From contig NZ_CANMJB010000004.1 in the NCBI RefSeq assembly GCF_947498175.1, positions 248,001-312,000 on the forward strand: DNA of 64,000 bases, read 5' to 3'. The notes beneath the pieces are model-generated. The model was not told the DNA's origin. It saw only the letters and a program-made list of their open reading frames with translations, and did no database searches. The translations under genes and the position numbers were made by a program. Below, piece by piece: positions 21,833 to 53,701 of this stretch; the first letter of the stretch is position 1, and each line of letters begins with the position of its first letter. The stretch is from an uncultured Algimonas sp. (GTDB lineage Bacteria > Pseudomonadota > Alphaproteobacteria > Caulobacterales > Maricaulaceae).

Positions 21833-24064
21833 GTGTCCAAAACCAGTATACGACTATCGGTGTTTCTCGAATCCGCCTTATGGCTAGCGCGCTGCGCAAG
21901 ATCTCGGATCCCTCTCTATTTCGGAGAAAACGCTAGAATTTCACAAGCTCATGCTAATGCGGCATTGAAGGTTATATTCGATATCGAAGCCGGGAAAACG
22001 CCGAGACTGCGTGCATTCGCGCGCTATGCGAATACATATCGCAGCCACCATAGCCGCCTTAGATTACTAAAGCGATGGAACCGAAATCGTTTCGACGAAG
22101 AACGCGTCGACACTTTCTGGGAAAAAGCGACGCTTTGCGAAGGAAGTCTGGACAGAAATTCCGCCGGATTGGTCAAACTGTTAGAAGCGCAACGTTCTAG
22201 TTCATATGCCAAATCTCCAATCGTTTCAAGATTCCGTTCGTCGATACCATCGGAACGAAGAAAGCCACAAACGAATAAAATTATACTTGTCGCATCATCG
22301 CACGTTACGGCCGAGCGATTGGATGTCCTATCTTCCCAAGACGTTGATGATATTGCCGTAATATCCACTCGATGGGGAGACTCTAGGGCCCTGGCGGCTC
22401 GAGTCGCCCGCATCTTCCCGCGGAAATCCGTGTCAGTCGCAGTCGACATCGCCGATATCGCCACTCGTTGGGGGTCGGTTTCCACCAAGGCCAACCACGC
22501 CGCATCAGTCATGGCTGACCGCTACGGTGCAGCGATCGCCGACCGATTACCGGGACAGGGGTGGCCTTCATGCGACGATTCATTCCGTACGGTTCTGGGC
22601 GAGCATATTTCCGACGTGTTGTATCGGTTCATCCAATCTGTGACCTTGCTTCGCGCGGCTTTGCGGGACTGCGATCCATGTCGAAGCCAGTTCTGTGCGG
22701 TGGAGTCTTATTTGCCGGCACTTGCCGTCGCTCGCCTTGGCGCGGAACCATCGGTGCCGATCTGGCTCGATCTCGTCCCCCCGCCCCGACCCGAAAAATC
22801 GGCACTGCAGGATTCGCTGGATAGAAAACGACGTCGGCTGAGCCGCGCGCTTCGCAAGAGACTGCCACGGTCGACAATCTCCCGACCTGTCTTCCTGTTT
22901 TCCATGTCATCCCGCATGGAAATCTACAATAACAGTGTCACCGACATCGCCCAGGCCGCCGCTACCGCACACTGCGCGTTCCTCGACTTCGACTCCACCG
23001 CACCCCGCAATCCGGACAGTTTGCAGAGCGTTCTGTCGTTCGCAGAGTTTCCAAAAGATGCCGATGCGGCCGATGCCGTGATTCGTGCGGCGGTCGATGC
23101 ATTGGAGGATTGTCCCGAACTCGTCCCTCTTTTCTCGATACTCCGTCCGCAACTGGAAGCCGCGACGCCGTATCTAATGGGCCTCCATGCTCTTCGACTG
23201 GAAAGCGAGAAAGAATTGCTTGCTTTGACAAATGCAGTGGTTGTCGGCTGCCCGGCTCGCGAGGCCGGCTTTCGCACCCTTGGCCTCGCAGCAAAGGCGG
23301 CAGGTCATGCTACAGCCGATCTCCAAGTTCTTCTAACCGGCGCGTCGGGCCGTTACCGCCCCCCGGTCGCCGATATGTGTCTCCTGACAGACCGATATAC
23401 AGCCGAAGACTATGCAACGGACTTTGCGGTTGCATCCGACCACATATCCGTCGTCGGTTCGCTCATGGCCGACCGGGAACTCGCCGACATCGTCCCATCG
23501 GGGTCACGCGGGGCCTTCAACATTCTGCTGGCTGCACAACCCCTGTCGCAGCACGCCATGAAAAGCTGGTTGGATGCATTGGGGAGGTATTGTCACACTC
23601 GGTCGAACACGCGTGTGATCTTGCGCGCCCACCCTGCGCAGGATGCGACAAGGCGGGCTTGGATGCTCGACCGCCTGAGGCGTTCAGCTGGATCCACGCA
23701 AGTCGTTATGTCATCCGCTCCGCGTGTCGGCGGCGATCTGGCTGACGCGAACGTCCTTGTCACGTTCTATTCCAATGTCGCGCTTCTGGCCGGAGCGCTT
23801 GGCATCCCAGCGCTTGCCCTGGATCATCCGGTCCGCGGTCGGATCGTCGACTTCGACCGGCGCGGCGCGGCACATCATATCGCCAGCAAGGAAGCATTGC
23901 ATCGCGAACTCGACGCAATCAAGGGGTCCGACGAACCTTGGAGACCGGAGTTGCGCAAGCGGTTCGATACGCGCTATGGTGACGGCCGTGCCGCCGAACG
24001 TATTGTATCGGTCTTGCGTAGTTTAGCGAAGAAAAATGGGCGGACACCGCATGCGTCGGATTAG
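21833..24064 (+). CDS. GT-B-fold-like surface glycan enzyme
   Basis: 743 residues from a GTG start. No transmembrane helix is obvious. The C-terminal third has the pattern shared by CDP-glycerol-transferase/capsule glycosyltransferase GT-B proteins: VILRAHPAQD, then TFYSNVALLAGALGIPALALD, i.e. a His-Pro followed by a donor-site Ser and a Gly-x-Pro. The N-terminal 400 residues are not recognised. The same C-terminal pattern recurs in the genes at 25732 and 29770. It probably acts in the cytoplasm on a capsule or cell-wall glycan; donor and acceptor are unknown. It overlaps the next gene by 29 bp. Confidence 0.6.
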   Translation: MSKTSIRLSVFLESALWLARCARSRIPLYFGENARISQAHANAALKVIFDIEAGKTPRLRAFARYANTYRSHHSRLRLLKRWNRNRFDEERVDTFWEKATLCEGSLDRNSAGLVKLLEAQRSSSYAKSPIVSRFRSSIPSERRKPQTNKIILVASSHVTAERLDVLSSQDVDDIAVISTRWGDSRALAARVARIFPRKSVSVAVDIADIATRWGSVSTKANHAASVMADRYGAAIADRLPGQGWPSCDDSFRTVLGEHISDVLYRFIQSVTLLRAALRDCDPCRSQFCAVESYLPALAVARLGAEPSVPIWLDLVPPPRPEKSALQDSLDRKRRRLSRALRKRLPRSTISRPVFLFSMSSRMEIYNNSVTDIAQAAATAHCAFLDFDSTAPRNPDSLQSVLSFAEFPKDADAADAVIRAAVDALEDCPELVPLFSILRPQLEAATPYLMGLHALRLESEKELLALTNAVVVGCPAREAGFRTLGLAAKAAGHATADLQVLLTGASGRYRPPVADMCLLTDRYTAEDYATDFAVASDHISVVGSLMADRELADIVPSGSRGAFNILLAAQPLSQHAMKSWLDALGRYCHTRSNTRVILRAHPAQDATRRAWMLDRLRRSAGSTQVVMSSAPRVGGDLADANVLVTFYSNVALLAGALGIPALALDHPVRGRIVDFDRRGAAHHIASKEALHRELDAIKGSDEPWRPELRKRFDTRYGDGRAAERIVSVLRSLAKKNGRTPHASD

Positions 24065-25739
24065 CGCCGCTCTTCACAGGCACACGATAGACACAGATAC
24101 GCTGGCGAGCCTGCGGGCTTTTCTGAAAACCATTCTGCGCGACGATGCCGCACGGATCGTTTATGTATCGATGCTCAGCATGCTCGGTGCAATATCCCAG
24201 ATCGGATTCGCCTATCTCTTGTTTCGACTCGTGACAGGCCGCGAAATACAGATCGGATCATTCGTCTTTGAACAAAATGTCCTGGCTGTCGGTTTGGCTG
24301 TCCTAGGCGCACTCGCCGCGATCCTGCCCTTTCTGACACAACGTGCTATAATTCAGGCCACCACGAAATATTTGGCTGCGAATGTGCGGTGGATGCGCGG
24401 AAAACTCGCAGATCTTGAAAGTCGCTATAGGATTCTGAGTTCGGGTCTTACACAATCGGAGATCACCCGCCTCATGTCGTCCGAAGCTCGCTATGCGAGC
24501 CTGGCCTATGCATCTGTGCTGCAGATCATTTTTCCGGGACTGCTTTTTCTAGCCTGTTACGGCGCACTCTGGATCATAAACCCGATGTGGACCTTCATCG
24601 TATCCGTCCTTATCGTTCCTTTTCTGGCATTGAGCGCCTTTGTGGTTCTCACTGGCATCGCCCGAAACGAGGAACTTCGGGCCGCATCGATTGCGCATAG
24701 TCGGGCGGCGGCCGCATTCGTTGCCGGAGTGAATCGCCATTTCTCCGCCAATCGATGGGGCAACACACTCGCACAATCCGCCGACGATTCCTATGATGAA
24801 ACATACGTTTCAGCCTACGGCCATCGCTTGTCGTTGGGCATCCTCCTGACCCTTGTCATGGATACCTTAACATTCGTGATTGTCGCCATAGTGGCGCTCT
24901 TGATCGTTTTCGGACGCATCGATCTCACGGAGGTGGCCGCCGTGCTGATATACGGCCTCATTTTGCGTTTCGGGATCGGAAAGCTGAGCGGCTGTGTCAA
25001 TCAATCCGTGTCCGTTGTCAGCCAGCTTCCCTATTATGGGAGTTTCATCCGGCTGAAATCCAACCTGCGCGACACTTCTATAACGCCCACCACAGCCAAG
25101 AGACTGGTTCCACCGCCCGCTTCCGTGATTTACGTCCATCCCGATGGTGCATCCTGGTCCGTTGCGCAGAGCTATATGCGCCATGTCCTTCAGGGTGGAA
25201 CAAGCGTAATCGATGTCCAGACTGCAGCCTTGCTGGCTTCGAACTACCCGCCATTGTTCGAGAATTATCAAAACACGCTGCAATTGTCTCCTCAAATGCT
25301 GAAATCCCGCATTCTCGAAGCCTTTCCACAAAGCGCACGCCGAGCCGAAGACTTTGAGAAACTCATGGCTTTGAAAGATGCGCCATTGACCCAAGCCCGA
25401 TTGCAGTCTCTGCCTCCGCCGGTCCGTTTCTTGATTGCAGTGCGCTACGCTAAGCGCAACGGCTTCGCCAAACGGTTGATTCTGGTGGATGCTGGCGATT
25501 ACATCCGACTTACGCCTGAAGAACGTGTCTGGCTGGACGGAGAGTTAAGAGACGCACATACTGTTTACGTTTGCGCCAACCCTGCACTCGCTCCACGTGT
25601 CGGAGCCGACCTGCCGGTTCTAGTATGGGACTCCGAGAGCATCCAGAGGTTTGAAGACGCCGCTTCGATGTTGCAGTTGGTTCGAGAACTCGGCAAGGAA
25701 AATTCCGAAACAATTGGAGATGATGACGAACATGAGTGA
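24036..25739 (+). CDS. ABC-exporter-like membrane protein with degenerate ATPase half
   Basis: 567 residues. The first 340 residues have six hydrophobic segments in the spacing of an ABC exporter membrane domain (for example VYVSMLSMLGAISQIGFAYLLF near the start). The remaining 220 residues sit where the nucleotide-binding domain should be and keep a possible Walker B/switch region (RLILVDAGDYIRLT ... HTVYVCANPAL). However, no Walker A GxxGxGKS/T loop and no LSGGQ signature can be found, and Walker B lacks the catalytic Glu. So it looks like an ATPase-dead relative. An ATG at 24051 is an alternative start. It overlaps both neighbours, implying tight coupling with the glycan enzymes. Confidence 0.65.
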   Translation: MGGHRMRRISAALHRHTIDTDTLASLRAFLKTILRDDAARIVYVSMLSMLGAISQIGFAYLLFRLVTGREIQIGSFVFEQNVLAVGLAVLGALAAILPFLTQRAIIQATTKYLAANVRWMRGKLADLESRYRILSSGLTQSEITRLMSSEARYASLAYASVLQIIFPGLLFLACYGALWIINPMWTFIVSVLIVPFLALSAFVVLTGIARNEELRAASIAHSRAAAAFVAGVNRHFSANRWGNTLAQSADDSYDETYVSAYGHRLSLGILLTLVMDTLTFVIVAIVALLIVFGRIDLTEVAAVLIYGLILRFGIGKLSGCVNQSVSVVSQLPYYGSFIRLKSNLRDTSITPTTAKRLVPPPASVIYVHPDGASWSVAQSYMRHVLQGGTSVIDVQTAALLASNYPPLFENYQNTLQLSPQMLKSRILEAFPQSARRAEDFEKLMALKDAPLTQARLQSLPPPVRFLIAVRYAKRNGFAKRLILVDAGDYIRLTPEERVWLDGELRDAHTVYVCANPALAPRVGADLPVLVWDSESIQRFEDAASMLQLVRELGKENSETIGDDDEHE

Positions 25740-27816
25740 ACTCAGTCTCGACACAGCTCCTGGTGCACGACCGATTGAGGATGTATCGGAAGAGGAAGCA
25801 ATGCGCCGGACTATGGTCTGGATTGACCCAACGCGGAATTTCGACGGATTGTTTACGGCGTTGCAATCAATAGAGAACAAGCTTCATCACCCGCCATTCT
25901 ATTTCATCGCCAGCAAGGTGCGTAGTGTCATCGCAACGGAAATGGCCGAACGAGGCCTGGAAATCGCGGACCGCATCGTCGAATATCGAACAATCAACAG
26001 TGATTACGACGCCACTCTCTACGCCAAGGGCATGGAGTTTGCCATCCATACCTTTGAAGCGCTTCAGTCCGCTTATCGCGATGGGTATGGCACGCCATTG
26101 TGGAAGCTCGCGCCTGAAATGCAGGAGCCTTTTTCCATCGGCATGATGGACCGCTTGGTCTCCCAGATGCGGCCTCTGCTGGAATTACGGATCGCAATGG
26201 GAGAAGTTGACGCAACGCAGCTTATATATCTCATTAGACCCTCGCCATATGGCTACGCCATATACCGAAGTGCGTTTGCCATGCTCGAAGACATAGATGT
26301 GATTGCAAATTTTCAGCACAATGCTGAACGTGCGGCCGTACACCACATGAAAGCCTCGCTGGATACCGTCTCGGCCGTACCTGCAAAGTTGCACGACTTA
26401 CCAATCCCGAGGCCGGACACTCCGCCCAAAAGCGGCCGGGTGATCATCAGTACCAATCTCATGGACCATCAGTACCGCATGACCAGCGCGCCCGTGATCG
26501 TCGCTCTTGTCGATAAAGCCGATATGATCGTCGCGGACTCTCGACCGACCGATACGCAGGCATTTGTAACACAGTTTTCGCTCGAATCCGCATTGGCCTC
26601 TGGACGGCTAAACCTCTGTTCGAAACATCCCGACCCGACACGACATAAAACCCTCGGTCCCAATCGCGAGATCATCGCGCTGGTTGCAGATAGTTTGGAA
26701 GACCATATTTCGTCCGACGATAATCCGACCTATCGGGCTTTCGCTCATGTATTGTCCGATTACCTTCGGGTATACGGATTGGCTTTCATTCGTTCGATCG
26801 TACATCTCGAACAAGCTTGGTCCCCACATGTGGCAAAAGCCAAACGTGTGGTCGTAACGCCTGGACGCACCATAGAGTCAGGCGTCCTTACGCAGTTAGC
26901 ACGGCGTCATAACGTTCCTTCCGTCGAAATACAGAGCGGGACCTTGTCCAGAAATCCTCGCTATATCCGACCGCAAGCCGACTATGTCCTATCGATCGAA
27001 TCCTTGTCCGAAGGCGTATATCGCGACTATTTGGGGTTTCCGGGAGAACGCATCAAAACGGTAGGCGGCCCCAAGTTGGAGTATGATATTTTTCCCATGC
27101 GCGGCGTGACCCGGGACGAAATTCTAGTCGATCATCCTCGTTTGTCAGGATTGGGTGATGACAGGGCAGTGGTGATGTTAGCTTCCCAGCCTATCGGATT
27201 GGACAAGGCCGCAGCAATTTTCGAAATGCTGGCAGCCGGAATCGCTGGAGCACGGCAACCCTATACCCTTCTGTGCAAGCCGCATCCGAACGAGGTTCCC
27301 GCCTATCGGTCCCGATATCGAGAGCTGGCAAAGGCGGCCGGTATCGATTGTATCATAGACACGGAGCTCAACGCCCTCGAAGCGGTAAGCGTGTCTGACA
27401 TTGTTACGACCTATTTCTCCACAGTAGGCCTTGAAGCATTTGCGCTAGGCAAACCTGTTCTGGTAATCAATCCCTTCGGGACAAGGACACCCTTTGATTT
27501 AAATGAACTGGGTGTGGCGCACGAAACAAAGACGGCTGAAGAAGTGACGGAAGCGCTTCATGCGTTCGAACAAGGCCAATTAGAAGACCTGGATTCGGCT
27601 CCGAGCCTACTTTGTCTCCGGGACGGATTGACGCTGGAACGAACGACGGAATTCATTCTCTCGCCGGATAGGGTGCCCACACGGCCTCTTCCGCCTAGAG
27701 CATGGACGGAAGTCGCGTGGTCATGGGCAAATCGCTTGCATTACACTACATCTCGTCTCGTCAAACATCGCTTGCATCACACCAAATCTCGTATTGTAAA
27801 ATATCGAAGACTTTGA
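25732..27816 (+). CDS. GT-B-fold-like surface glycan enzyme
   Basis: 694 residues from the ATG that overlaps the upstream stop (ATGAGTGA); ATGs 9 and 12 bp earlier are also in frame. The central and C-terminal parts show a GT-B pattern: VEIQSGTLSRNPRY, VGGPKLEYDIFP, LLCKPHPNEVP, and TTYFSTVGLEAFALGKPVLVINP, as in capsule or teichoic-type polymer transferases. The N-terminal 250 residues are not recognised. The protein ends in a basic tail made of a duplicated 12-residue unit. Substrates unknown; context points to surface polysaccharide. Confidence 0.6.
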   Translation: MSELSLDTAPGARPIEDVSEEEAMRRTMVWIDPTRNFDGLFTALQSIENKLHHPPFYFIASKVRSVIATEMAERGLEIADRIVEYRTINSDYDATLYAKGMEFAIHTFEALQSAYRDGYGTPLWKLAPEMQEPFSIGMMDRLVSQMRPLLELRIAMGEVDATQLIYLIRPSPYGYAIYRSAFAMLEDIDVIANFQHNAERAAVHHMKASLDTVSAVPAKLHDLPIPRPDTPPKSGRVIISTNLMDHQYRMTSAPVIVALVDKADMIVADSRPTDTQAFVTQFSLESALASGRLNLCSKHPDPTRHKTLGPNREIIALVADSLEDHISSDDNPTYRAFAHVLSDYLRVYGLAFIRSIVHLEQAWSPHVAKAKRVVVTPGRTIESGVLTQLARRHNVPSVEIQSGTLSRNPRYIRPQADYVLSIESLSEGVYRDYLGFPGERIKTVGGPKLEYDIFPMRGVTRDEILVDHPRLSGLGDDRAVVMLASQPIGLDKAAAIFEMLAAGIAGARQPYTLLCKPHPNEVPAYRSRYRELAKAAGIDCIIDTELNALEAVSVSDIVTTYFSTVGLEAFALGKPVLVINPFGTRTPFDLNELGVAHETKTAEEVTEALHAFEQGQLEDLDSAPSLLCLRDGLTLERTTEFILSPDRVPTRPLPPRAWTEVAWSWANRLHYTTSRLVKHRLHHTKSRIVKYRRL
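27733..27804 (+). repeat. 36-bp tandem duplication at the 3' end of a glycan gene
   Basis: Two adjacent 36-bp units encode RLHYTTSRLVKH and RLHHTKSRIVKY, giving a basic C-terminal tail. The copies have diverged at several positions, so the duplication is not very recent. It keeps the frame. Confidence 0.8.
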
Positions 27817-27886
27817 TCTAAGCTTTCAACTATTTTCCAAAGCCGTACTAACTTCAGAGCATTATAGGGCAGCTGATGGGTGGACC

Positions 27887-29773
27887 ATGCGCCAATCTGC
27901 CGATCAGAGAAAAAAGACAGACCTTATGTTAGCGCTCTATGTCGATATCCTCTCACCCGGTCTTTCATCCTTTCGCAAAGCATTGCAGGATGAAATCGGT
28001 ACAGGACAGCCAATCGAAGTCCTTCTGTCCTATAACGCCTATACACAACACGTTCCCGGAATTCTTAGGCCGCTTGATCTGGTGGATGGCGAAGTCTTCA
28101 ACCAGTCATACCGCAAGGCATATGAATGGCAGTTGGCTCTTCCATCAACGCAGTTAGAAAATGGGCGCTCACTTGCGGATCATATGACCTATGACGGCGA
28201 TAAAATCGCCTATGGGGGTTGGGTCTGGCGACCCACGCTGGCCATGCATGCGAGAATAGGGGTTCTGGAAATCATATTCGCCGCTTTGGAAGCATCTCCG
28301 GACAGCCCTGTCGTCATATTCGGCAAATCACGGGAATTGAGCTGGATACGTGACTTTGCCGAACGCGTTGTAAAACAAAAAGGGCGCGAACTCATCGACG
28401 AAACAAGTCTGCTAAGCCCTCAGTCAGCAGAGCTGTATATTGACCACCTAGCATGTATCACAGCCGATATCGAAGCTGGGCGCAGCAACATTCGAAAACA
28501 AAGCGAAGATCTGCGCAGGAAACGTCTACAAATCATCGTCAAGCGTGAGAATACTTACCGTGAGCGCATTAAACGCCTTGATGGATCCATTGCTGCGATT
28601 CGGAGAGTTATTAAAAATATGAGCAGTGAGGGGTTTAATGCGGAAACGACGGAAGCCATGAGAAGTCGTTTGAGGATGCTCGACACTGAATACGCTGAAT
28701 CTAATACTGCGAGCGTCGCAACACTGCGTGAACTCGAACTCACTGCATCTGCCCAGGCGGAGAGAGCGGAGGCTTATTCTGTCTTGCGAAAGGACGTTGC
28801 GCGCCTGCGACAGATCAAACGTAAGCAAGCTTTGCGGACAGCTACCATTAAGCGCACCATTCAGATCCGCAATCGGCTCAGAAGTCTTGCTGATCGGATA
28901 GAAAATACCGAAAAGTACAACAAGAACACAATAGTTGGTCAAGCTTTTCTCGAAACGTATCGGAAGCTCAATCTCGATGATGTAGAGATCGACGATGCAA
29001 TCTTACAGAAGGTCCTGGATAAGCACTTGAACACTTTGCGAGACTTTGAACAGGACAATGCCAATCTGTTGCGGGACTTGGATTTGCAAGATGCAGTCGG
29101 ATGGACTTCCGAATGGCTTCCACAAGTCGAAGATGCCTTGAATAGAACTTGGTTGGAACATTCGGCGCCCGACATTTTCGAACGCCTGAAACATCTTCGT
29201 TCCGAGCTCCGCGAGTGGCTAGACCTTTATAACAGTGATGATGCTTCAGCCTCGGTCCCACATGCCCGTGCTACACGTTCCAACGCCCATCTCTTGATGC
29301 GAGAATTCAGACTTTATGAGAAACAACATGAAGCGCAAACTCGCATGGCTGAGCGCAGAAAGAACGCCTTTAATGCTTTAGAGGAGGCGCTGAAAGTCTT
29401 CCGCAAGCGCCTTCCCAACAATTCTCTACCAGAACGCGTAGACACGGAAACAAGGCGTTTGAAAGATCGAGTCGCTTCTGGCCAAGTAACCGAGCAAGAA
29501 CGTGCTGGCATCCCCGCGAGGATGTTCGCGCTGGCACACATGGTGAAACTGACGACCGCATTAGACGCCCAGTCCATGTTGCTGAAAAACCAAATGAAGA
29601 AAAAGGGAGGAAAAGTTTCGGAAGCGGAGGCGATCCTCGTCGCCAAAACAAAAACATTCGATGGCGACCTGCAATCAATCGAAGCGATCAAATTGGAGTC
29701 GCAACGGCTGACCGAGGCTGTCACGACCGCGAAGGCCTTGATACAGGCCCTTGCCAAGGATGACGGTCAATGA
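27887..29773 (+). CDS. Long coiled-coil protein of unknown function
   Basis: 628 residues, an ATG after GGTGG; an internal ATG at 27926 is also possible. Residues about 14-165 form a globular alpha/beta-looking domain (LALYVDILSPGLSSF, then VVIFGKSRELSWIRDF). From about 185 to 340 there is a very long heptad-rich coiled coil dense in Arg, Lys, Glu and Leu, and further helices follow to the end. No signal peptide or membrane helix. The stop overlaps the next start by 4 bp. It may act as a scaffold or length-measuring partner of the glycan enzymes on either side; that is a guess from context. Confidence 0.6.
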   Translation: MRQSADQRKKTDLMLALYVDILSPGLSSFRKALQDEIGTGQPIEVLLSYNAYTQHVPGILRPLDLVDGEVFNQSYRKAYEWQLALPSTQLENGRSLADHMTYDGDKIAYGGWVWRPTLAMHARIGVLEIIFAALEASPDSPVVIFGKSRELSWIRDFAERVVKQKGRELIDETSLLSPQSAELYIDHLACITADIEAGRSNIRKQSEDLRRKRLQIIVKRENTYRERIKRLDGSIAAIRRVIKNMSSEGFNAETTEAMRSRLRMLDTEYAESNTASVATLRELELTASAQAERAEAYSVLRKDVARLRQIKRKQALRTATIKRTIQIRNRLRSLADRIENTEKYNKNTIVGQAFLETYRKLNLDDVEIDDAILQKVLDKHLNTLRDFEQDNANLLRDLDLQDAVGWTSEWLPQVEDALNRTWLEHSAPDIFERLKHLRSELREWLDLYNSDDASASVPHARATRSNAHLLMREFRLYEKQHEAQTRMAERRKNAFNALEEALKVFRKRLPNNSLPERVDTETRRLKDRVASGQVTEQERAGIPARMFALAHMVKLTTALDAQSMLLKNQMKKKGGKVSEAEAILVAKTKTFDGDLQSIEAIKLESQRLTEAVTTAKALIQALAKDDGQ

Positions 29774-31446
29774 ATTTTCTGCAAAAACTGTTCGGAAAGC
29801 GGAAGTCCGTGGACGAAAGCGAGGAAAACTCGCGAGTAGTGAAGGAAAAACCTGTAGCTGACCGGCTTTCGACGTCCACACTCGAATCCGAAGCCAAGCC
29901 GGCTTTGCCAGTCGGTTACGAGCTCGATGAAGCAATCGAGCAAGCTCGCGCTAGCCTGTCGAACGTTCATCCAGTTGACCCGAGCCGGAATCGAATCGCT
30001 TTTGTGACCCGTGGTAGCAGCGGGGTTCGCTGGTTTCCTGATCCGCAGACGAATACTCTGGTGCAACGCGACGAGTATGCCGAGAACATACCGGAAGCCC
30101 TTGTCGAGATTTGTCAAAAGACGGGATGGGAACTGGTTGTCATTTACATGGGCAGAGCACCGGAGTTTGACGCTAAGCATCTGAGCTATTCCGACCGCTT
30201 TCCGGAAACGGCGCGCGACGTCGATTTCTCCGGGCTAGGGTCTTCGATCGCCAATCTACGCCTTGCCATGGGCAATCACTTCCAGAAGAAATGGGACGAA
30301 GTCCGCGACGATTCAGGCTTCAAGGCCGCTTTCTCCTACAAGGGCATTCCGCTTTACGAGGAGGTCGAACTCGGCCTCGATCGCTTTGCGCCCGTTATCG
30401 CGGCCAACGACATCACCAACTATGCCCACTGGAAGGCATTGTTCGACCACTTCTCACCGCTGATGATAATTGGCGGACGTCTGGACTCAAATCCGGGGTT
30501 GTTGCAGGCCGCCCAAGACGCCGACGTTTTCTCCGCCAACGTCAAACTCGGAATTGGCGAGGAAATGTTGACACCTTTCTTCCTGGGAGACGGCGACGGT
30601 AGACCAGCGAAAAGGATCAGCCCGGATCTGCATTTGCTTTGGGGTCCGAAACAGGCGGAGATGCTGGACGTCCGTGTCGAAGAACATCCCTCCGACTGGG
30701 TCGCCGTCGGCCGGACGCGTAACGATAGTTTCGGAGACGCAGCACCAGCCGGACGGTCGGCGCGGTTCCGGGAGCATATCGGCGCGCAGCCCAACAGTCC
30801 GATTATTGTGTACGGCGCCAACCACCGGACCTTCTATGCCAAGAACCCCGGCGACAATGACGGGCTATGCTGTCTTAGCTGGAATTCCTACAAGGCCGCC
30901 ATGGTAGCTCTGATCGACGTAGCGCGTGAGCATCCAGGAACGGTGGTCGTCGTCAAACCGCACCCTTCCGACGACATTTCAAACATTCGCAAGTTTGTCG
31001 AAACGATTACGGGGCCTGTGCGGATCGTCACCAACGAGGAAGGCTTCCATAATGCCGCCATCCTTGGAGAAGCAGACATATTCGTGTCCTCGGTCAGTTC
31101 GATGTTTAGCGAAGCCTTGGCCAGCGACTGCGTGCCGGTCTCGTTGTGGCTGGATGAAATCAATTTCCTCTACGAAAAAAACCGCCACACCATGTTTAGC
31201 GAAATTGCCTTGCCGGCGGAAAGCATCAAGGAGATGAAATCTGTCGTCGCCGAAATCCTGTCAACATCCAACAAAGAGCCGATTCTTGCTGAATTGCGCG
31301 GAAACCTGCCGCATTATTTCGGGCCTGTTGACGGTAGGAATGCGGATCGCGCCGTCACTGCTGCCTTGCACGCATTGATGGATCGCCGACCCGAACTCGC
31401 AGACGCTGCGGAATGGCTCAAGGACACGGCGGAACTCTCCTATTAG
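29770..31446 (+). CDS. GT-B-fold-like surface glycan enzyme
   Basis: 558 residues, starting in the ATGA overlap with the coiled-coil gene. The C-terminal half reads IVYGANHRTFYAKN, TVVVVKPHPSDD and DIFVSSVSSMFSEALASDCVPVSLW, the His-Pro / Ser-Ser / Glu-Ala pattern of CDP-glycerol-type or capsule GT-B transferases. The first 60 residues are charged and probably flexible. It is the third protein of this general type in the five-gene run, so the locus may build a polymer from several linkages. Exact reaction unknown. Confidence 0.6.
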   Translation: MNFLQKLFGKRKSVDESEENSRVVKEKPVADRLSTSTLESEAKPALPVGYELDEAIEQARASLSNVHPVDPSRNRIAFVTRGSSGVRWFPDPQTNTLVQRDEYAENIPEALVEICQKTGWELVVIYMGRAPEFDAKHLSYSDRFPETARDVDFSGLGSSIANLRLAMGNHFQKKWDEVRDDSGFKAAFSYKGIPLYEEVELGLDRFAPVIAANDITNYAHWKALFDHFSPLMIIGGRLDSNPGLLQAAQDADVFSANVKLGIGEEMLTPFFLGDGDGRPAKRISPDLHLLWGPKQAEMLDVRVEEHPSDWVAVGRTRNDSFGDAAPAGRSARFREHIGAQPNSPIIVYGANHRTFYAKNPGDNDGLCCLSWNSYKAAMVALIDVAREHPGTVVVVKPHPSDDISNIRKFVETITGPVRIVTNEEGFHNAAILGEADIFVSSVSSMFSEALASDCVPVSLWLDEINFLYEKNRHTMFSEIALPAESIKEMKSVVAEILSTSNKEPILAELRGNLPHYFGPVDGRNADRAVTAALHALMDRRPELADAAEWLKDTAELSY

Positions 31447-31475: not shown

Positions 31476-32432
31476 TTAGGATCCACCTACCATTACGTCG
31501 TAAATGCGGTTCTGATGATCGAGTTGATCGGCGACGCGCAATAGGTGGGGGGAGCCGTCCGGGGACAGAAAGGCCGCTACTTGGCGGCGGATGCCGGGTT
31601 TGAAATCGGTATCGTCGGATGCGCCCTCACACTCGATCTCTTCGACGGCAAAGCCGGCTTTGGTGCGGATCTTGAGCCCTTCGAGTGGCTGGAACATGTA
31701 GGTCCGCCCATTCGTGCAGATTTCGACCATCCAACGCGGCGCTGCGTTCCAATCGGCATGATAAGAAAACAACGCTCCAGTCTTCGCGAGCCCGTGACCG
31801 ACGAACACGGCAGGATCATGCCATCCTGTTGTCCCAGCGCTCATCGTCTCGATCATGTCGGGGAAGCCACCCATGAAAAAAGCCATGTCCGCCACATGGG
31901 TGGAGTTGGCAAGAAACCACGAGGCCTTAACGCTGTCGGGCTGTGCGGACGGCCCGATGCGGTCCGACCATTCACTAATTTCGAAGCGGAAGGAAGTCGC
32001 CCCCCCATCCTCTGCGATGCGGCGGCGGGCTTCTTGGACAGACGCATAGAAGCGGCGGTTATAGGCGACAAACACATCGCTGTTCGTAATCTCGGCCTTG
32101 GCGACGACCGATGCGATTTCCTGGGCGTTCAGTCCGGCGGGTTTTTCCACCAACATGTTGCGGACCCCGGCATCCATGAGTGTGATAGACGCTTCTGCCA
32201 GGACGGGAACCGGTAACGCGACAATGGCGTGGGTGCAGTCTTTCAGCGCGTCGTGGTTGGCATCTAGGCCGCCGGTCAGGACAGGGAGGCCAACAACGTC
32301 TTTGAATTTGGCGGCAGACGTTTCGCCGCGGCCGACCACGATGCTGTCCACGCCATCGGCTTTCAGCACATGGCCGTAGGCTTGGGCCATGGGTCCGGCA
32401 CCGATCAGTGCGACTTTGACAGAAGGACTCAT
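31476..32432 (-). CDS. Gfo/Idh/MocA-family sugar oxidoreductase
   Basis: 318 residues. VALIGAGPMAQAYGHVL is the NAD(P)-binding loop and NMLVEKPAGLN holds the EKP motif with the catalytic Lys. Such enzymes oxidise or reduce nucleotide sugars or free sugars in the cytosol. It is the last gene of a minus-strand run (37745 to 31476) of nonulosonate-type genes and converges on the GT-B cluster with only 29 bp between stops. A PtmF-like role is possible but cannot be decided from sequence. Confidence 0.8.
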   Translation of the reverse strand: MSPSVKVALIGAGPMAQAYGHVLKADGVDSIVVGRGETSAAKFKDVVGLPVLTGGLDANHDALKDCTHAIVALPVPVLAEASITLMDAGVRNMLVEKPAGLNAQEIASVVAKAEITNSDVFVAYNRRFYASVQEARRRIAEDGGATSFRFEISEWSDRIGPSAQPDSVKASWFLANSTHVADMAFFMGGFPDMIETMSAGTTGWHDPAVFVGHGLAKTGALFSYHADWNAAPRWMVEICTNGRTYMFQPLEGLKIRTKAGFAVEEIECEGASDDTDFKPGIRRQVAAFLSPDGSPHLLRVADQLDHQNRIYDVMVGGS

Positions 32433-32450: not shown

Positions 32451-33398
32451 TCAAGTCACCATGCAGAGGTCGCCATTCGGCGCCTGTGGGTGAATGGCGG
32501 GACGTAACGCGTCGAGATAGAGGCGGTGCAAGCGCGAAGATTGTGCGAGTGTAGGCAGGTTGGAGGTTCGCTCGGCGACCATCTCCTGCAATGCAAACCC
32601 GAGCTGGCTAGTGTAGAGTATCGTGAAAGGGTCGGAATTTATCATGCCGCCGGTTTCACTGATGTCGTAGCCTTTTCCGTTCTGTTCGACCCTGATTGAG
32701 ATAGGATCTCCATTGCCGGGTCTGGATATCAGAGTGGCTACGCTGTCATCGGCCAATTCGGCCCGCAAAGTTCCGGTCAGTTCGCGGTAGCCGGCGCGCT
32801 TGGCGTCTCTTGCATCCGCGTCGTTTAGCATGATCGTCTTGATTTCGCTATCTGCGAGAAGCTCGGCAAGGGCCAGGAAATGGATACCGTTGCTGCCCAA
32901 TCCCCAGTCGGAGCCGGTGACCTCCAGAGAAAGCGGTGCATTCGTTAGACGAGCTGCTAGAGACCGATAATCCGGCCATATGTTTCGCGTCGTGTTCACC
33001 CATGTCGGAATGCCTTCCAACAGCTCGGCAGCTCGGTCGTAATCGCTGTCCGCGGTAAATAGGACCTTTTCCAGCATGACCGCGCGCGGTCGTGTCCGGG
33101 CGAGCGTAGAGCAAAGCGCATCCATTCGCTGGTGCGCCGAACAGGCTATGATCAACAGATCGACCGTCTCGGGAAGCTCGTCCGCGCTATTGACCATCTT
33201 CAGCATATTGACGCGGCCATCGGTGCGCCCGACTTGCGCAAAACGTTCCGCACTCAAGTTGCGCGCTGCTTCGGAAGGTTCCACACCAAAGACGCTTAAA
33301 TTCTCCAGCTCTACCGTTGCCGCTGACTGCAGCAGGCGCGAGCCGATGTTGCCGCAGCCGATCACCGCGATCGTACGGGGTCGTTTCGTATCGCTCAT
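32451..33398 (-). CDS. Gfo/Idh/MocA-like oxidoreductase
   Basis: 315 residues from the ATG following GGAAAACGAAT; an ATG 18 bp upstream is also possible. TIAVIGCGNIGSRLLQ is a Rossmann loop. In the place of EKP it reads MLEKVLFTADSDY, so the Pro is replaced though the Lys remains. The C-terminal half, with SLEVTGSDWGLGSNGIHFL, is the predicted alpha/beta substrate domain. It lies 18 bp upstream of the other oxidoreductase and downstream of the PtmE-like gene, and PtmF of the GDP-sugar branch of legionaminate synthesis is the closest idea. Confidence 0.65.
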   Translation of the reverse strand: MSDTKRPRTIAVIGCGNIGSRLLQSAATVELENLSVFGVEPSEAARNLSAERFAQVGRTDGRVNMLKMVNSADELPETVDLLIIACSAHQRMDALCSTLARTRPRAVMLEKVLFTADSDYDRAAELLEGIPTWVNTTRNIWPDYRSLAARLTNAPLSLEVTGSDWGLGSNGIHFLALAELLADSEIKTIMLNDADARDAKRAGYRELTGTLRAELADDSVATLISRPGNGDPISIRVEQNGKGYDISETGGMINSDPFTILYTSQLGFALQEMVAERTSNLPTLAQSSRLHRLYLDALRPAIHPQAPNGDLCMVT

Positions 33399-33427
33399 AT
33401 TCGTTTTCCGAGGCATTGCTAAGCCGC

Positions 33428-34489
33428 CTACTGACCTTCCTCGTCACTAGGCATGAAGCGCGACTGTGCTGCTTCGAACTCGCTTTTGGAACCGATGTCG
33501 ATCCAGGTGTCGCGCATCAAGTGGACAGAACAGTCGTGTTTGGCGTTCACCAGATCAGAAAACAAGGTCGGCATGTCGTAGAACTTGTCATCGGGAACGT
33601 AGCGGAGGGCCTCGCGCGAGACGCAGTAGATGCCGGCGTTGATGTGGTGGGTCAGGGTCGGCTTCTCGCGTGTCTCCTGATAGCGATGACCATCGCTTTC
33701 CACGACGCCGAAGGCAATGTTCGTGCGATGTTCACGAATGCACATGGTGGCCGTCGCACCCGTCTTGACGTGGACGCCGATCAGGTCGTCGAAATCCATG
33801 TCCGTGAGAAGGTCACCATTCATGACGATGAACGGCATCCCCATGTTCCTGGGTAGAAGCGACAGGGCGCCGGCCGTGCCGAGACGCTTATCCTCGCGAA
33901 TGTAGCTGATGTGTACGTCCATGTGATCGCCGTCACCGAAATAATCTTCGACCATATGACCCAAATAGCCGATCGAGATGTAGAAACGGCGGAATCCCTG
34001 CTCTCGGAAGCGCAGGATGATATGCTCGAGGATCGGCTTGTCACCAAGTTGGAGAAGAGGCTTCGGACAATTTTCCGTAAGCGGCATCAGGCGGCGGCCC
34101 AGCCCGCCCGCCATGAGCACGATGGGAGCAACCTTGTCGGATGTACGCGGCAAATGTTTCTGGCCTGCCAGACCAAGCAATATGCCGTCTGCATCCACGA
34201 TCGGGGCGTAGTCTATGTCGCGGGAGACGAGTTCGGACTCGACATCCATCAGATCGTCATCCCTGAAGACGAACGGAGTGCGATTGGCGATGCTGTCCAA
34301 CGTGTCGTCAAGTTCCGCACCGCTAATGATGGCGCGGCGGAAATCGCCGTCTGTGGCCGTCCCGACGAGCCTTCCCTTCTCGTCCGTCACCAACAGGATC
34401 TTGGTGACGGATTTCTCGAGCTGCTCCAGCGCTTGGCGCAAACTCATTGTCTGCGAGGCGCGCGATGATGCGGCGTCCTGAATATCCAT
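33428..34489 (-). CDS. CBS-domain sugar-1-phosphate nucleotidyltransferase, PtmE-like
   Basis: 353 residues. Residues about 10-118 carry two CBS domains (LLVTDEKGRLVGTATDGD and VDADGILLGLAG). Residues about 125-345 are a nucleotidyltransferase with MAGGLGRRLMPLTENCPKPLL as the NTP-binding loop and FIVMNGDLLTDMDF at the metal site. In Campylobacter, PtmE with this architecture makes GDP-glucosamine for legionaminic acid. Here the same reaction is inferred from domain order and neighbours; another sugar-1-phosphate or CTP is possible. Confidence 0.8.
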   Translation of the reverse strand: MDIQDAASSRASQTMSLRQALEQLEKSVTKILLVTDEKGRLVGTATDGDFRRAIISGAELDDTLDSIANRTPFVFRDDDLMDVESELVSRDIDYAPIVDADGILLGLAGQKHLPRTSDKVAPIVLMAGGLGRRLMPLTENCPKPLLQLGDKPILEHIILRFREQGFRRFYISIGYLGHMVEDYFGDGDHMDVHISYIREDKRLGTAGALSLLPRNMGMPFIVMNGDLLTDMDFDDLIGVHVKTGATATMCIREHRTNIAFGVVESDGHRYQETREKPTLTHHINAGIYCVSREALRYVPDDKFYDMPTLFSDLVNAKHDCSVHLMRDTWIDIGSKSEFEAAQSRFMPSDEEGQ

Positions 34490-34498: not shown

Positions 34499-35362
34499 CT
34501 ACTCTGTCTCGGTGTTTGAACTGCCGGACTTTCGCGTCCACGGCATGATTTTCCGTTTGAGCGCGCCTGCACGGCGCAGCCGGTCGCGGGATTCCTCTAT
34601 AAAGCGCGCATGTGGCCGATGTGCCAGTTCGCCCAGACCCGTCCGGCCAGCCTCGATATCCGCCCTTAGCCAAGTATTCAACAGGCGCACTCGCGCGATT
34701 TCGTGCTCACGCCTATGGCTGTTAGCGGCATCCCCCGTCTGCGTGTCCGGACGGACGAACTGTCTGGCCAGTATGTCCGGAATGACACCGATATCGCCTT
34801 TGGTCATCAGGCGTAGCCACAGGTCCCAATCTTCGAGCGCATCAACGCGCATGTTCATCCCGCCGACCTCACGATAGGTGGAAGCACGGAATAGGGTGCC
34901 GATGGTCAGAATTCGGTTGCGCTCCGCCATGTCATAAAGGGTCGGCAGCAGTTCCGGAGCGTGGCGTTTCAGAAGGGTCTGGCGCCCGCCCTCTTCGAGA
35001 ACCTTCTCATATCCGCATGTCACGGCGATATCGTCTGAATGGGCGTCGAGATAGTGTGATAGGCGCTCCAATGCCTGCGGAACCAATGCGTCGTCATCGT
35101 CGTGCAGCATGAGATAATCGCCAGTTGCCGCATCCAGTCCCATCTTGGCGGCGCGTGCACGACCTAGATGTTCGGCCTCGTCGATCACGGTTTGAGCTAT
35201 GCCTACGCCAGAGAGACTGCCGGCATCGATCGGATCTTCTCCATCATTGACCACGACCCAGTCGAAAACCGCGGTTTGCATGCGCAAGCCCTCAGCCGCG
35301 CGCGCCAAAGCGTCGGGTCGGCCGAACGTGCGCGTCACGACGGAAATGGATGGTGATCCCAT
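34499..35362 (-). CDS. Family 2 glycosyltransferase
   Basis: 287 residues from the chosen ATG 7 bp after the aminotransferase stop (a longer form overlapping that gene is possible). SPSISVVTRTFGRPDALARA is the GT-A nucleotide-binding start, WVVVNDGED follows, and DYLMLHDDDDALVPQ holds the DxD metal site. The C terminus is basic. It is a cytosolic or membrane-peripheral transferase, probably adding a sugar in the same pathway as the surrounding nonulosonate genes. Confidence 0.8.
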   Translation of the reverse strand: MGSPSISVVTRTFGRPDALARAAEGLRMQTAVFDWVVVNDGEDPIDAGSLSGVGIAQTVIDEAEHLGRARAAKMGLDAATGDYLMLHDDDDALVPQALERLSHYLDAHSDDIAVTCGYEKVLEEGGRQTLLKRHAPELLPTLYDMAERNRILTIGTLFRASTYREVGGMNMRVDALEDWDLWLRLMTKGDIGVIPDILARQFVRPDTQTGDAANSHRREHEIARVRLLNTWLRADIEAGRTGLGELAHRPHARFIEESRDRLRRAGALKRKIMPWTRKSGSSNTETE

Positions 35363-35369
35363 GCGCACC

Positions 35370-36530
35370 CTATACCCTGAGGATTTCCTTGAGTGTTTCG
35401 ATGACGCGGTTCTGCTCACCTGCCGTCAGCTGGGTCGAACAGGGCAGGGTCACGATGCGGCCCCAGACGCCCTCGCCGACCGATTGGTCCTCGCACGGAA
35501 CGTCTGCGAAAGGTTTTTGCAGATGAACGGGCTTCCAGAAGGTCCGAGCCTGGATCCGACGGTTCATCAGCGCGTCGCAGATTTCGGAAGCAGACGGCTG
35601 GATCGCCTCATCCACCACGATGCCCGAGAACCAGCAGGTGCTCTGCCGGTCATTCGGATAAGGGAACGGGCTGACTCCGGGCAGCCCGGCCAGCTTTTCA
35701 TCATAGGTAGCCCGGATGCGGCGTTTGGCAGAGAGGAACTTTGGCAGGCGTTCGAGCTGCGCGCAGCCGACTGCGGCTTCCAGATTCGTCATGCGGTAAT
35801 TGTAGCCGACTTCGTCATGATCATAGTCCGTGGAAACGCGGGCCGTGGTGGAGACGTGCTTGATCCGGGTCAGTAACGCATCGTCGTCACCCACCACCAT
35901 GCCGCCGCCGCCGCTGGTGATTGTCTTGTTGCCGTTGAAGGAATAGCAGGTCAGGTCCGCGCACTGCCCGATGGGACGGCCCTTGTAATCCACCCCTATG
36001 GCGGCAGCCGCGTCGGCGATAACCGGAATCCCGTAATCGCGCGCAATCGCGTTGATCGCGTCCATATCAGCCGGCGTACCAAGAGTGTAGACTGGCATGA
36101 TAGCGGCAAGGCGCTCGCCCGTGTCGACATGGAACCAATCTTCGCCGCGCCTCTCTACCTTGGCATCCAATCCGGCCCGAACCTTCGCCGCATCAAGCGT
36201 CCAGCTGTCAGCCTCGATATCGAACAGCCAGGGCCGCGCGCCTGCATGGGCGATGGAATTAGCCGAAGCAATGAAAGTGAAGCTTGGTAGGATGACCAAA
36301 TCTCCACGCCCGATATCCAATGCGTGCAGCGACATGTGCAGCGCCATCGTGCCGGCCCCCATGGCGACAGCGTGTTTGGTTCCCGACAGCTTAGCCACAC
36401 CCTCTTCCAATTCGCCGACAAAGGCGCCGACCGTGGAGACATAGGTCGTGCGGATGCACTCCTGCAAATTGTCGCCTTCGGCTTGGGTGATGTTCGGGAC
36501 AGCAAGGGGAATGAATGGAAGTTCGGCCAT
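35370..36530 (-). CDS. LegC-like PLP-dependent sugar aminotransferase (DegT family)
   Basis: 386 residues. YSFNGNKTITSGGGGMVV carries the PLP-binding Lys and the glycine run typical of LegC-type aminotransferases; GAGTMALHMSLHAL binds the cofactor phosphate. The family transfers an amino group from glutamate to C4 of a 4-keto-6-deoxy nucleotide sugar. It lies 3 bp downstream of the 4,6-dehydratase, whose product would be its substrate, which strengthens the call. Confidence 0.85.
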   Translation of the reverse strand: MAELPFIPLAVPNITQAEGDNLQECIRTTYVSTVGAFVGELEEGVAKLSGTKHAVAMGAGTMALHMSLHALDIGRGDLVILPSFTFIASANSIAHAGARPWLFDIEADSWTLDAAKVRAGLDAKVERRGEDWFHVDTGERLAAIMPVYTLGTPADMDAINAIARDYGIPVIADAAAAIGVDYKGRPIGQCADLTCYSFNGNKTITSGGGGMVVGDDDALLTRIKHVSTTARVSTDYDHDEVGYNYRMTNLEAAVGCAQLERLPKFLSAKRRIRATYDEKLAGLPGVSPFPYPNDRQSTCWFSGIVVDEAIQPSASEICDALMNRRIQARTFWKPVHLQKPFADVPCEDQSVGEGVWGRIVTLPCSTQLTAGEQNRVIETLKEILRV

Positions 36531-36533: not shown

Positions 36534-37745
36534 TCAGGCTCGCTGGTCCAGATTGGACTTGCTATCGATGTGGGCCTCGAGAAAGCGAGGCTCAACACGG
36601 GCAATCATCGCCTTGATCTCGTCCTTATCGGCTTTGTTTTCGCCTCCGACCACACGGATCAGATCTGACACCAGACCGGATACGCTTGCCGTCCTTGGGG
36701 CCTTGTAGGTCACCACACCCAGCGCGCTCAGTCCGATTTCTCGGTAGGCTTCGCCTTCGCCGACAAATTCTTCATAGGGCTTTTCGCCCGCCGTATTGGA
36801 CGGGGTGATCAATAGCGGCCATTCGCCCCTGGCGCGACAGGACCCGACAGCTCGGATGGCCTCGGCTTCATCGTCATAGAGACGCGGAGTGAGATCGTGC
36901 GCTGTAAGAAATGCTTCGGCGACTGACTGCAGTGTCACGAGGTGTTTCTGCGGATCGAGCTTGGGCACGGCGATCTGCTCGTGATCCGGAATGATGGAAG
37001 CCAGCATGCAAATCTGCCCACTCTCTTCCAGACTGACGAAATAACGGCGGATGCCGTCGGGCGCGGCGAGCGCCTGTCCGCTAGCTAGGCGATTCTGGAA
37101 GCTCTGCAACAAAGAACCATTGGAATAAGCGACATTGGCAAAACGTGCCGTCGTAACCTTGCCTGTCAGCCCGGCCTCTCGGGCGCCGTCGAAAAGTACG
37201 TGTTCCATTATCCGCTTGGTCGCGCCCATGAAGGAGACCGCATTGGCGGCTTTGTCGGTAGAGACGCTGAAATAGTCGGCATCCGGGTTGGTTCTGACAA
37301 TGAAGTCTCGGAACCGCGCCTGCTTGACGATATTGGTGTCCAGCATCTGCAGCACGGAGAAGACGTCCTTTTCGCTACGTACATGCTTGATCGCCGCGAA
37401 GTTCAGGATGCGGTCGTAGTTTTCCTGCTCCATCAGGCGGAGCATGGCAGCGCTGCCGTAATCAAGCGGCAGAGTGCGGAAATCCTGGGTCTTCAGTACG
37501 CCGGGGCGGGACCGGAACTGTCGCACCAACTCAGCCAGCGCATTCTCGTTCTGGTCGACGACATGCAGGGCCGCCGGCGCGTAGCCCGCCAGAACCTTGA
37601 CGGTTTCCGACCCAATCGACCCCGCAGCGCCGACCGCAAGAATACGCTTGCCTGTCACCGCTTCGCAAATTGCTTCGTCGCAAGCCTGGACATCGTGCGA
37701 GAACATCGACCGTTCACGATGCGTGGCAGTGGAAGATATCGACAT
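36534..37745 (-). CDS. Nucleotide-sugar 4,6-dehydratase, LegB/CapD-like
   Basis: 403 residues. RILAVGAAGSIGSETV is the NAD-binding loop; YFSVSTDKAANAVSFMGATKRI is the catalytic block, where Met replaces the usual Tyr of MxxxK as in PglF/FlaA1-type short dehydratases. No membrane helices, so it is the soluble type. It converts an NDP-N-acetylglucosamine to the 4-keto-6-deoxy sugar. It is the first gene of the minus-strand run, 3 bp before the aminotransferase. Confidence 0.8.
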   Translation of the reverse strand: MSISSTATHRERSMFSHDVQACDEAICEAVTGKRILAVGAAGSIGSETVKVLAGYAPAALHVVDQNENALAELVRQFRSRPGVLKTQDFRTLPLDYGSAAMLRLMEQENYDRILNFAAIKHVRSEKDVFSVLQMLDTNIVKQARFRDFIVRTNPDADYFSVSTDKAANAVSFMGATKRIMEHVLFDGAREAGLTGKVTTARFANVAYSNGSLLQSFQNRLASGQALAAPDGIRRYFVSLEESGQICMLASIIPDHEQIAVPKLDPQKHLVTLQSVAEAFLTAHDLTPRLYDDEAEAIRAVGSCRARGEWPLLITPSNTAGEKPYEEFVGEGEAYREIGLSALGVVTYKAPRTASVSGLVSDLIRVVGGENKADKDEIKAMIARVEPRFLEAHIDSKSNLDQRA

Positions 37746-43113: not shown

Positions 43114-43155
43114 GTTATTTCTGCCGAAGACAGATTGACCGCCTGGCCAATTGTC

Positions 43156-48287: not shown

Positions 48288-48984
48288 CTGTTCCCTCATC
48301 GGCCAGAGCCTTTTCCATCCAGACCCGGGCGAGGGTCAGGTCAAAATCGGTATCTATATCGATGGAACGGTGATGAGGCATTTCGTAGGCATAGGTCGGA
48401 TCCATCAGGAAGCTCGATTTCTCGGAGGCGAGGAAGCTTTCACGATCGCAGACGTAGACCGCTCCGTTGGGAACATAGGCCTTCTCCTGTTCCTGGCGCC
48501 TTTTGAATGGATCGGCCGCTTCAAAATAAGGCTCCATGATCTCTTTGCGTTTGGCCCAGAAACGTCCCGGGGTGACTTCGCTTTCCGTGACGCTCACGAC
48601 GGTATGGCAGCGGACCGTCTCGAACAAATCGACGCAGGCTCTGATATCCTGGGTCAGGCGCAGGGGTGAGGTCGGCTGCAGATAGACGAAACGATCATAG
48701 CCGTTTCCGAGAATGTCCAGGGCGTGGAGCGCCGCCGCCTTTGCGGTTGCGGTCGAACCGGACAAATGCTCGGGACGGTCAATGACGCCTGCCCCGTGAC
48801 GCCTAGCCTCGGCTTTCGTGGGCTCGTGATCGGTGCTGACATAGATGTTGTCCAAGCCGATGACAGGCGCGGCCGCCTCGATCGCAATCTGGATCAGGGA
48901 ACGTCCGTCGATCTCCATGAGGTTCTTGCCAGGCAGGCGGACGGAGCCCCCTCTTGCCGGTATAATTGCGGGGATGACGGACAT
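48280..48984 (-). CDS. CMP-nonulosonate synthetase (acylneuraminate cytidylyltransferase), copy 2
   Basis: 234 residues from the ATG preceded by GGGAGG. AIIPARGGSVRLPGKNL is the CTP-binding loop, IYVSTDHEPTK and RFVYLQPTSPLRL the following blocks, and DIDTDFDLTLAR the C-terminal metal-binding stretch. Same reaction class as copy 1. In the legionaminate pathway of Campylobacter, LegF and PtmB are two such paralogues in one locus, so a pair is not unprecedented. Confidence 0.85.
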   Translation of the reverse strand: MSVIPAIIPARGGSVRLPGKNLMEIDGRSLIQIAIEAAAPVIGLDNIYVSTDHEPTKAEARRHGAGVIDRPEHLSGSTATAKAAALHALDILGNGYDRFVYLQPTSPLRLTQDIRACVDLFETVRCHTVVSVTESEVTPGRFWAKRKEIMEPYFEAADPFKRRQEQEKAYVPNGAVYVCDRESFLASEKSSFLMDPTYAYEMPHHRSIDIDTDFDLTLARVWMEKALADEGTDA

Positions 48985-53694: not shown

Positions 53695-53701
53695 GCAGAC
53701 C

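Follow-up and report, generated by a model that had tools for sequence, protein, structure and literature searches.

A predicted ATPase-dead ABC-exporter-like protein and large GT-B proteins beside a nonulosonic acid pathway in an uncultured Algimonas sp.

The stretch considered here, referred to throughout as the window, comprises 64,000 nucleotides of an uncultured Algimonas sp. (contig NZ_CANMJB010000004.1, positions 248,001 to 312,000, of assembly GCF_947498175.1; the 2.85 Mb genome is called G000 below, and other genomes and loci are cited by G and L handles). Its list of open reading frames (ORFs) contains, at 21833-31446, five consecutive ORFs on one strand, termed g1-g5, which a sequence-only reading had described as a surface-glycan locus encoding three GT-B-like proteins, a dead ATP-binding cassette (ABC) protein and a coiled-coil protein. 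The five genes are real and are indeed overlapping or nearly so, the g1/g2, g2/g3 and g4/g5 pairs overlapping and g3 and g4 being separated by 70-109 bases. The assignment to a surface-glycan locus is supported; a nonulosonic acid pathway begins at 31476, just beyond the limit of 31446 set by that reading, and runs convergently to g5.

21833..24064, plus strand: g1, GT-B protein with a large N-terminal domain, 743 amino acids
24036..25739, plus strand: g2, membrane protein resembling type IV ABC exporters, with the remnant of a dead nucleotide-binding domain (NBD), 567 amino acids
~25720..27816 (open frame from 25651), plus strand: g3, GT-B protein with a large N-terminal domain, ~698 amino acids
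27887 or 27926..29773, plus strand: g4, orphan, helical, possibly coiled-coil, without a transmembrane stretch
29770..31446, plus strand: g5, GT-B-like protein with no relative by direct search

An ABC-exporter-like membrane protein without a Walker A motif

The g2 protein has six hydrophobic stretches and a six-helix membrane domain homologous to that of type IV ABC exporters. When a family profile built from six members was compared by hhalign with four intact ABC exporters, the resulting alignment (probability 97.2%, E 3e-11) covered the membrane domain and reached the Walker A region; the underlying alignment, A4, omits a 389-residue protein from G217 and an interrupted copy in G104. At the Walker A position, five of the six members have SWS, NWA, DWS or SWA and one differs. 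No Walker A motif was found by six-frame scanning of the four full-length g2 relatives (0/4), or in L034, L035, L036 and g2 itself, L036 being counted in both sets, and the signature and Walker B motifs of the family are not recognisable by eye. The description of g2 as a dead ABC protein is upheld by these comparisons, which identify it as an ABC-exporter-fold membrane protein lacking Walker A.

The R152-Y153 pair of g2 is invariant in the six members, and a C-terminal NBD remnant, of ~200 residues in g2, is kept in all six; it is absent from the G217 member (L035:7250-8419), a membrane-only protein of 389 amino acids in a glycosyltransferase-rich locus. There is no conserved glutamate ladder in the six rows of A4, a shallow alignment in which the only acidic membrane-domain column kept in 6/6 lies two residues before the R-Y pair. 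No Pfam family was matched by g2, and comparison of the g2 family with PDB sequences gave nothing meaningful. Plasmids yielded no match to the L036 g2 query, nor did three plasmid loci (two rhizobial, one from A. lipoferum) to the g2 profile. A second g2-like copy in G104 (L012:13244-15811, minus strand) is present as two pieces flanking an IS-like (insertion sequence) or integrase-like ORF, which recurs in L066.

Searches for an intact ATPase covered the window and the flanks fetched for its relatives (118 kb in G000, 57.8-60 kb in each of four others, 36 kb in G217 and 6.9 kb in G222), and were made in six frames; longest-frame ORF lists miss an ABC exporter in L039. No stretch of the window combines Walker A with an ABC signature, and a looser ABC pattern found, in the flanks of the seven g2-family genomes, one stretch, in G180, which by eye is elongation-factor-G-like. 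These results bear on the proposal that g2 is the dead partner in a heterodimeric ABC exporter whose live partner is encoded elsewhere, the system being driven by ATP. The membrane part of g2 is homologous to real exporters, and heterodimeric exporters commonly have one site that is degenerate; the lack of an ABC transporter ATPase in the regions searched, the unrecognisable signature and Walker B motifs, and the complete loss of the NBD in G217 nevertheless make this arrangement unlikely.

Recurrence with one type of nonulosonic acid locus

The g2 profile matched nine of 299 genomes of the order. Two of these (G212 and G291) were ordinary ABC exporters with Walker A and were removed before counting, leaving the family in G000, G104, G123, G028, G180, G222 and G217. 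Among 385 genomes of the class, the profile matched its own genome and four others; the proteins of G489, G382 and G498 are ordinary, Walker A-bearing ABC exporters, and G374 gave no match with a second profile.

The LegB-type dehydratase of the window, searched at E 1e-60 or better, is matched in 19 of the 299 order genomes, in six at 58-100% identity and in 13 at 37-49%. The six with close LegB proteins (G000, G028, G222, G104, G180 and G123) are six of the seven g2-family genomes, and none of the other 13 is among the nine matched by the g2 profile. The hypergeometric chance of this overlap is ~7e-12, or 3e-7 when counted by genus, neither value being corrected for descent; the 58% line was drawn after the gap between 49 and 58% had been seen, and the 299-genome set is taken, from its handles, to be identical in the three order searches. 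The six carriers span five genera and two families, and in five of them g2 and legB lie ~6-11 kb apart on one contig, the sixth, G222, being represented by two short contigs. No NeuB-like ORF was found in the four loci read among the 13 lower LegB matches (L093 of f2, L094 of f4, L095 of the same genus and L096 of the same family).

The pathway genes of the window lie at ~31-49 kb, the first being 30 bases beyond g5, and are listed below with an acyltransferase region further downstream.

31476..32432, minus strand: Gfo/Idh-type protein A (PF01408, 1.3e-6)
32451..33416, minus strand: Gfo/Idh-type protein B (PF01408, 0.00048, below cut-off)
33428..34489, minus strand: nucleotidyltransferase with CBS domain (PF00483, 4.5e-34, and CBS)
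34499..35419, minus strand: GT2 glycosyltransferase (PF00535, 4e-13)
35370..36530, minus strand: LegC-type aminotransferase (TIGR04181, 387 bits, below the cut-off of 420)
36534..37745, minus strand: LegB-type dehydratase (PF02719, 3.2e-33; 58-67% orthologues in the other five carriers)
40269..41318, plus strand: NeuB/LegI-type nonulosonic acid synthase (TIGR03569, 443.9 bits, over the NCBIfam cut-off)
41319..42482, plus strand: NeuC/LegG-type epimerase/hydrolase (TIGR03568, 380.4 bits, over the NCBIfam cut-off)
43135..44568, plus strand: possible Maf/GT29/GT42-like protein with C-terminal membrane helices (no Pfam match; family placement tentative)
47523..48299, minus strand: CMP-nonulosonic acid synthetase-like (PF02348, 7.5e-17)
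48280..48987, minus strand: CMP-nonulosonic acid synthetase-like (PF02348, 2.4e-19; relatives in G123, G028 and G222)
52231..55207, plus strand: MBOAT acyltransferase (PF03062, 2.4e-30) and a partner protein without Pfam match

Judged by family matches, the set of LegB, LegC, NeuB, NeuC and CMP synthetase appears complete, with LegC just under its cut-off, so that legionaminic acid is the likely, rather than the proven, sugar. Several of the associated genes recur in related loci: Gfo/Idh-type protein A has relatives of 34-39% identity in G104, G123, Sinorhizobium mexicanum and Mesorhizobium sp. AR07, protein B has relatives in G104, G123, G028 and S. mexicanum, and the CBS-nucleotidyltransferase, which we take to be PtmE/LegX-like, has relatives of 51-60% in G104, G123 (partial) and G180. 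A relative of the MBOAT protein, whose partner is presumably AlgJ-like, adjoins the g2 homologue in G028. The 477-residue protein at 43135..44568 has an IVGSGP motif; relatives occur in the G104 and G123 Leg loci, and a more distant one in the leg locus of Azospirillum lipoferum AZO_p6; the best match of this protein among PDB profiles, 5mu5 (presumably a Maf glycosyltransferase), is not significant (E 0.21). It may be a nonulosonic acid transferase.

Further genes of interest were noted by eye near these loci. A glycine-rich, tail-fibre-like ORF (44562-45539) lies within the glycan locus of the window, part of it being 33% identical over 94 amino acids to an L095 ORF that adjoins a different sugar locus; terminase-like and other phage-like or gene-transfer-agent-like genes occupy the end of the window (58094-63764). 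CysD/CysN-like sulfate activation genes occur close to the G123 and G104 Leg loci (L014:148-4089, L014:13561-14544 and L018:2671-5545), and KdsA-like and KdsD-like genes (DAHP_synth_1, SIS and CBS matches) close to that of G123; a sulfated glycan, or one bearing 3-deoxy-D-manno-octulosonic acid (Kdo), is possible.

The distribution of the locus can be set against two other explanations. The first is that it glycosylates flagellin with legionaminic acid, the GT-B or Maf-like proteins modifying flagellin in the cytoplasm and g2 being irrelevant. FlmG-type cytoplasmic glycosylation of flagellin with pseudaminic acid is known in Caulobacter, according to excerpts of PMC7591256, and provides a precedent; flagellin was matched in five of the six genomes searched (G222 lying outside that search), and the protein at 43135-44568 is possibly Maf-like. 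The flagellin of G000 is, however, ~220 kb away on the same contig, and G028, which is 99% complete, has a g2 homologue, two large GT-B proteins and Leg genes, yet no flagellin match. Since the locus is thus carried by a genome without a flagellin match, modification of flagellin alone is unlikely as its general role, and the explanation as a whole appears rather improbable.

The second is that the block belongs to an island that is losing function, as a dead NBD, low third-position GC content (GC3), IS remains and split upstream genes might suggest. GC3 is 0.52-0.65 in g1-g5, lower than the 0.66-0.77 of nine further window genes, and the g2-like copy in G104 is interrupted. Upstream, at 16807-18433, fragmentary ORFs (an RmlA-like nucleotidyltransferase in pieces and, after it, a short GT2-like ORF) and the adjoining IS-like remains, which extend to ~20.8 kb, look like a broken sugar locus beside g1-g5, all as judged by eye. 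Against decay, the frames of g1-g5 are long and open, and both a long frame and the C-terminal remnant are kept in six of the seven proteins of the g2 family, from two families of bacteria, which is hardly expected under neutral decay; loss of function is very unlikely as an account of the block.

GT-B proteins, the orphan g4, and capsule loci on rhizobial plasmids

Searched singly, the putative GT-B proteins give weak matches, all under curated cut-offs: g3 and g5 match BFO_1060 (1e-10 and 8.2e-10; 41 and 38 bits versus a cut-off of 200) and g1 matches DUF6716 (0.0011). Their relatives are more informative. A full-length relative of g1 occurs in G028 (22.9% across 790 columns; 2.9e-20 against a small local database), and one of g3 lies directly behind the g2 of G104 (30% over nearly full length, 2.8e-80); G123 has a 1586-residue protein with two GT-B domains, G028 one of 1288 and G180 one of 911 residues. 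A profile of eight such domains matched 3c4q, which we take to be a GT-B enzyme, at 1.4e-8; KpsC (0.22) and SiaD (0.27) were also listed, neither significantly. Sequence comparison thereby makes the GT-B identity of g1 and g3 firm at the level of the family; the third protein counted as GT-B by the sequence-only reading, g5, joins them by profile comparison with hhalign only (58.6%, E 9.5e-5).

Q490, H522-P523, S567 and A573 (g3 numbering) are kept in all eight aligned domains (alignment A5, which omits g5, L036:7449-9221, L072:17312-18502 and both rhizobial proteins discussed below), which therefore all contain the HP motif of bacterial sialyltransferases of families GT38, GT52 and GT80. This motif helps to bind the CMP-sialic acid donor (PMC2169525, in excerpt) and is also common to KpsC-type Kdo transferases (PMC10148158, in excerpt). 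The GT-B proteins of G123 and G028 match PF04464, the CDP-glycerol glycerophosphotransferase family (3.4e-19 and 1.8e-9, respectively), and each scores 27.5 bits with PF05159, Capsule_synth, for which the cut-off is 20. The GT-B proteins are accordingly related, at a distance, to transferases of the capsule and teichoic-acid types.

The recurring unit extends beyond the five genes and consists of the nonulosonic (legionaminic-type) pathway, GT-B proteins of the g1/g3 type with the HP motif, and g2. The five genes do not recur as one unit: part of the set does, with g2 directly before a g3 relative in G104, but not the full set in the same order. Direct search with g5 found no relative in the 298 other order genomes, and no plasmid match. 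No relative of g4 was found in 60 genomes, the 136 other genomes of the family, plasmids or genome contigs; it has no PDB match, and its N-terminal part did not match the g3 profile. A Snf7 match (0.0038, below cut-off), a modest heptad score and the lack of a transmembrane stretch do no more than suggest a coiled coil in g4, and the idea that it measures or scaffolds the polymer finds nothing beyond its helical sequence. Being absent elsewhere, g4 may be a strain-specific accessory protein.

Searches beyond the order connect g3 with known capsule systems, to which the sequence-only reading had seen no simple match. The g3 search of plasmids returned four records, two of them from Priestia and annotated as CDP-glycerol glycerophosphotransferase family, and two, from Mesorhizobium sp. 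AR07 and S. mexicanum, within nonulosonic acid loci; g1 matched no plasmid, and an alignment of g3 with its G104 relative gave no confirmed match among genome contigs. The S. mexicanum locus encodes NeuB, NeuC, CMP-synthetase, LegC, PtmE, relatives of both Gfo/Idh-type proteins and a g3-type GT-B protein, together with an ABC-2 membrane protein (5.4e-15), an ABC ATPase (4.3e-15), two Capsule_synth proteins, one of which aligns with g3 by blastp (29.6% over 98 amino acids, 2.7e-5), a GT29-type protein (2.1e-9) and a KpsE-like protein without Pfam match (28% to its Mesorhizobium counterpart). The AR07 locus has part of the nonulosonic set, with Capsule_synth (5.1e-38) and Wzz-type (2.5e-4) matches and a protein 22% identical to the S. 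mexicanum KpsM-like protein; no clear ABC ATPase was recognised in it. Rhizobial K-antigens containing pseudaminic acid are known (excerpts of PMC7591256 and PMC4270759). The presence of this GT-B type in rhizobial nonulosonic/Kps loci implies that it belongs with capsule-like nonulosonic glycans.

The export genes of the rhizobial loci have no recognised counterpart beside g2. Rhizobial KpsM/T/E and KpsC/S-like proteins gave no tblastn match at 1e-3 in the stretches from the seven genomes, although the rhizobial GT-B proteins, in the same search, did match g3 and its kin. Poly_export and Wzx (PF01943) are matched in each of the six genomes searched, but always outside the Leg/g2 loci (9/9 and 12/12, respectively), and Wzy_C matches are present as well. 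The sequence-only reading, which saw no Wzx, Kps or Tag components, was therefore right in that no exporter of these kinds is recognised at the locus, and too sweeping in that relatives of g1 and g3 match Capsule_synth and CDP-glycerol glycerophosphotransferase over cut-off.

Proposed role and comparison with known systems

We consider it slightly more probable than not (roughly 55%) that g1-g5 supply the glycosyltransferases and the membrane part of a locus for a nonulosonic (legionaminic-type) surface glycan, with g2 as its membrane component. From their family matches, the flanking enzymes would make a CMP-activated nonulosonic sugar. The large GT-B proteins may transfer this sugar, or partner sugars, in the cytoplasm to give a short or polymeric capsule-like glycan; such a role is suggested by their fold and HP motif, by a distant similarity to capsule families and by the occurrence of this type in Kps-type loci of rhizobia. 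The g2 protein could be an ATP-independent translocase of the glycan or, equally well on these data, a membrane anchor for the GT-B enzymes. Read in this way, the window would hold a capsule-like nonulosonic glycan module with a dead ABC protein where an exporter is expected.

Several observations weigh against this proposal. The g2 members are 15-29% identical (mean 18.6%) versus 51-73% for LegB, LegC, NeuB and NeuC (means among five carriers 63, 62, 60 and 54%, respectively), which could reflect relaxed constraint, replacement or a looser family. Either g2 is a fast-changing gene, as is common among surface-glycan genes, or the unity of its family is weaker than it appears; the S-W-like motif at the Walker A position and the R-Y pair, common to the members, argue for unity. 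In G217 the g2-like protein is membrane-only and a close LegB is lacking. The searches for an ABC partner and for Kps proteins covered the loci and their flanks, so that a live ABC partner or a Kps exporter may be encoded elsewhere in the genome. The D/E-D/E-G motif of sialyltransferases has no invariant columns in A5, where the N-terminal halves align poorly, so that a CMP-sugar donor is not established; the PF04464 relatives use CDP-glycerol.

A bolder extension is that g2 represents a new class of glycan flippases working without ATP, ABC exporters that have lost ATP hydrolysis and retain a remodelled NBD. They would export the nonulosonic glycans made by HP-motif GT-B enzymes, taking the place of the Kps-type ABC exporter in related capsule loci. 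This is a doubtful, tentative suggestion. For the passage of nonulosonic glycans across the membrane by means other than Wzx and Kps, to our knowledge an open question, a dead ABC protein that accompanies one type of Leg locus supplies a concrete candidate gene. Nothing on such a system appeared among the matches listed by literature searches, which is not proof of absence.

Among known systems, Tannerella GtfS is a GT-B pseudaminic acid transferase (PMC6120980, in excerpt); g3 and g5 match BFO_1060 weakly, and an identity of BFO_1060 with GtfS is not shown, BFO_1060 being unmentioned in the excerpts of that paper. The FlmG/Maf systems of flagellin glycosylation resemble the window in their nonulosonic donor and in the possible Maf-like protein, and differ in that loci of the window type occur in a genome without a flagellin match. 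We know of no g2-like or large GT-B proteins in FlmG/Maf systems. Among Kps-type (group 2) and rhizobial K-antigen loci with nonulosonic acids, that of S. mexicanum is alike in its nonulosonic genes and has a g3-type GT-B protein beside KpsM, KpsT and Capsule_synth proteins, that of Mesorhizobium sp. AR07 having part of this set; by contrast, no Kps exporter is recognised at the locus in the carriers, where g2 is present instead. With type IV ABC exporters of the MsbA/PglK kind, g2 shares a homologous membrane domain, differing by the lack of Walker A and of an ABC transporter ATPase nearby. SbmA, an ABC-type membrane domain without a working ATPase, is proton-driven (PMC13316013, in excerpt). 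In the former respect g2 is like SbmA/BacA (SLiPT), from which it differs in its ~200-residue C-terminal remnant, in having no conserved glutamate ladder and in matching no Pfam family. Should g2 prove to transport, it would join SbmA as an example of an ABC membrane domain that is not coupled to ATP, in this instance with an NBD remnant retained.

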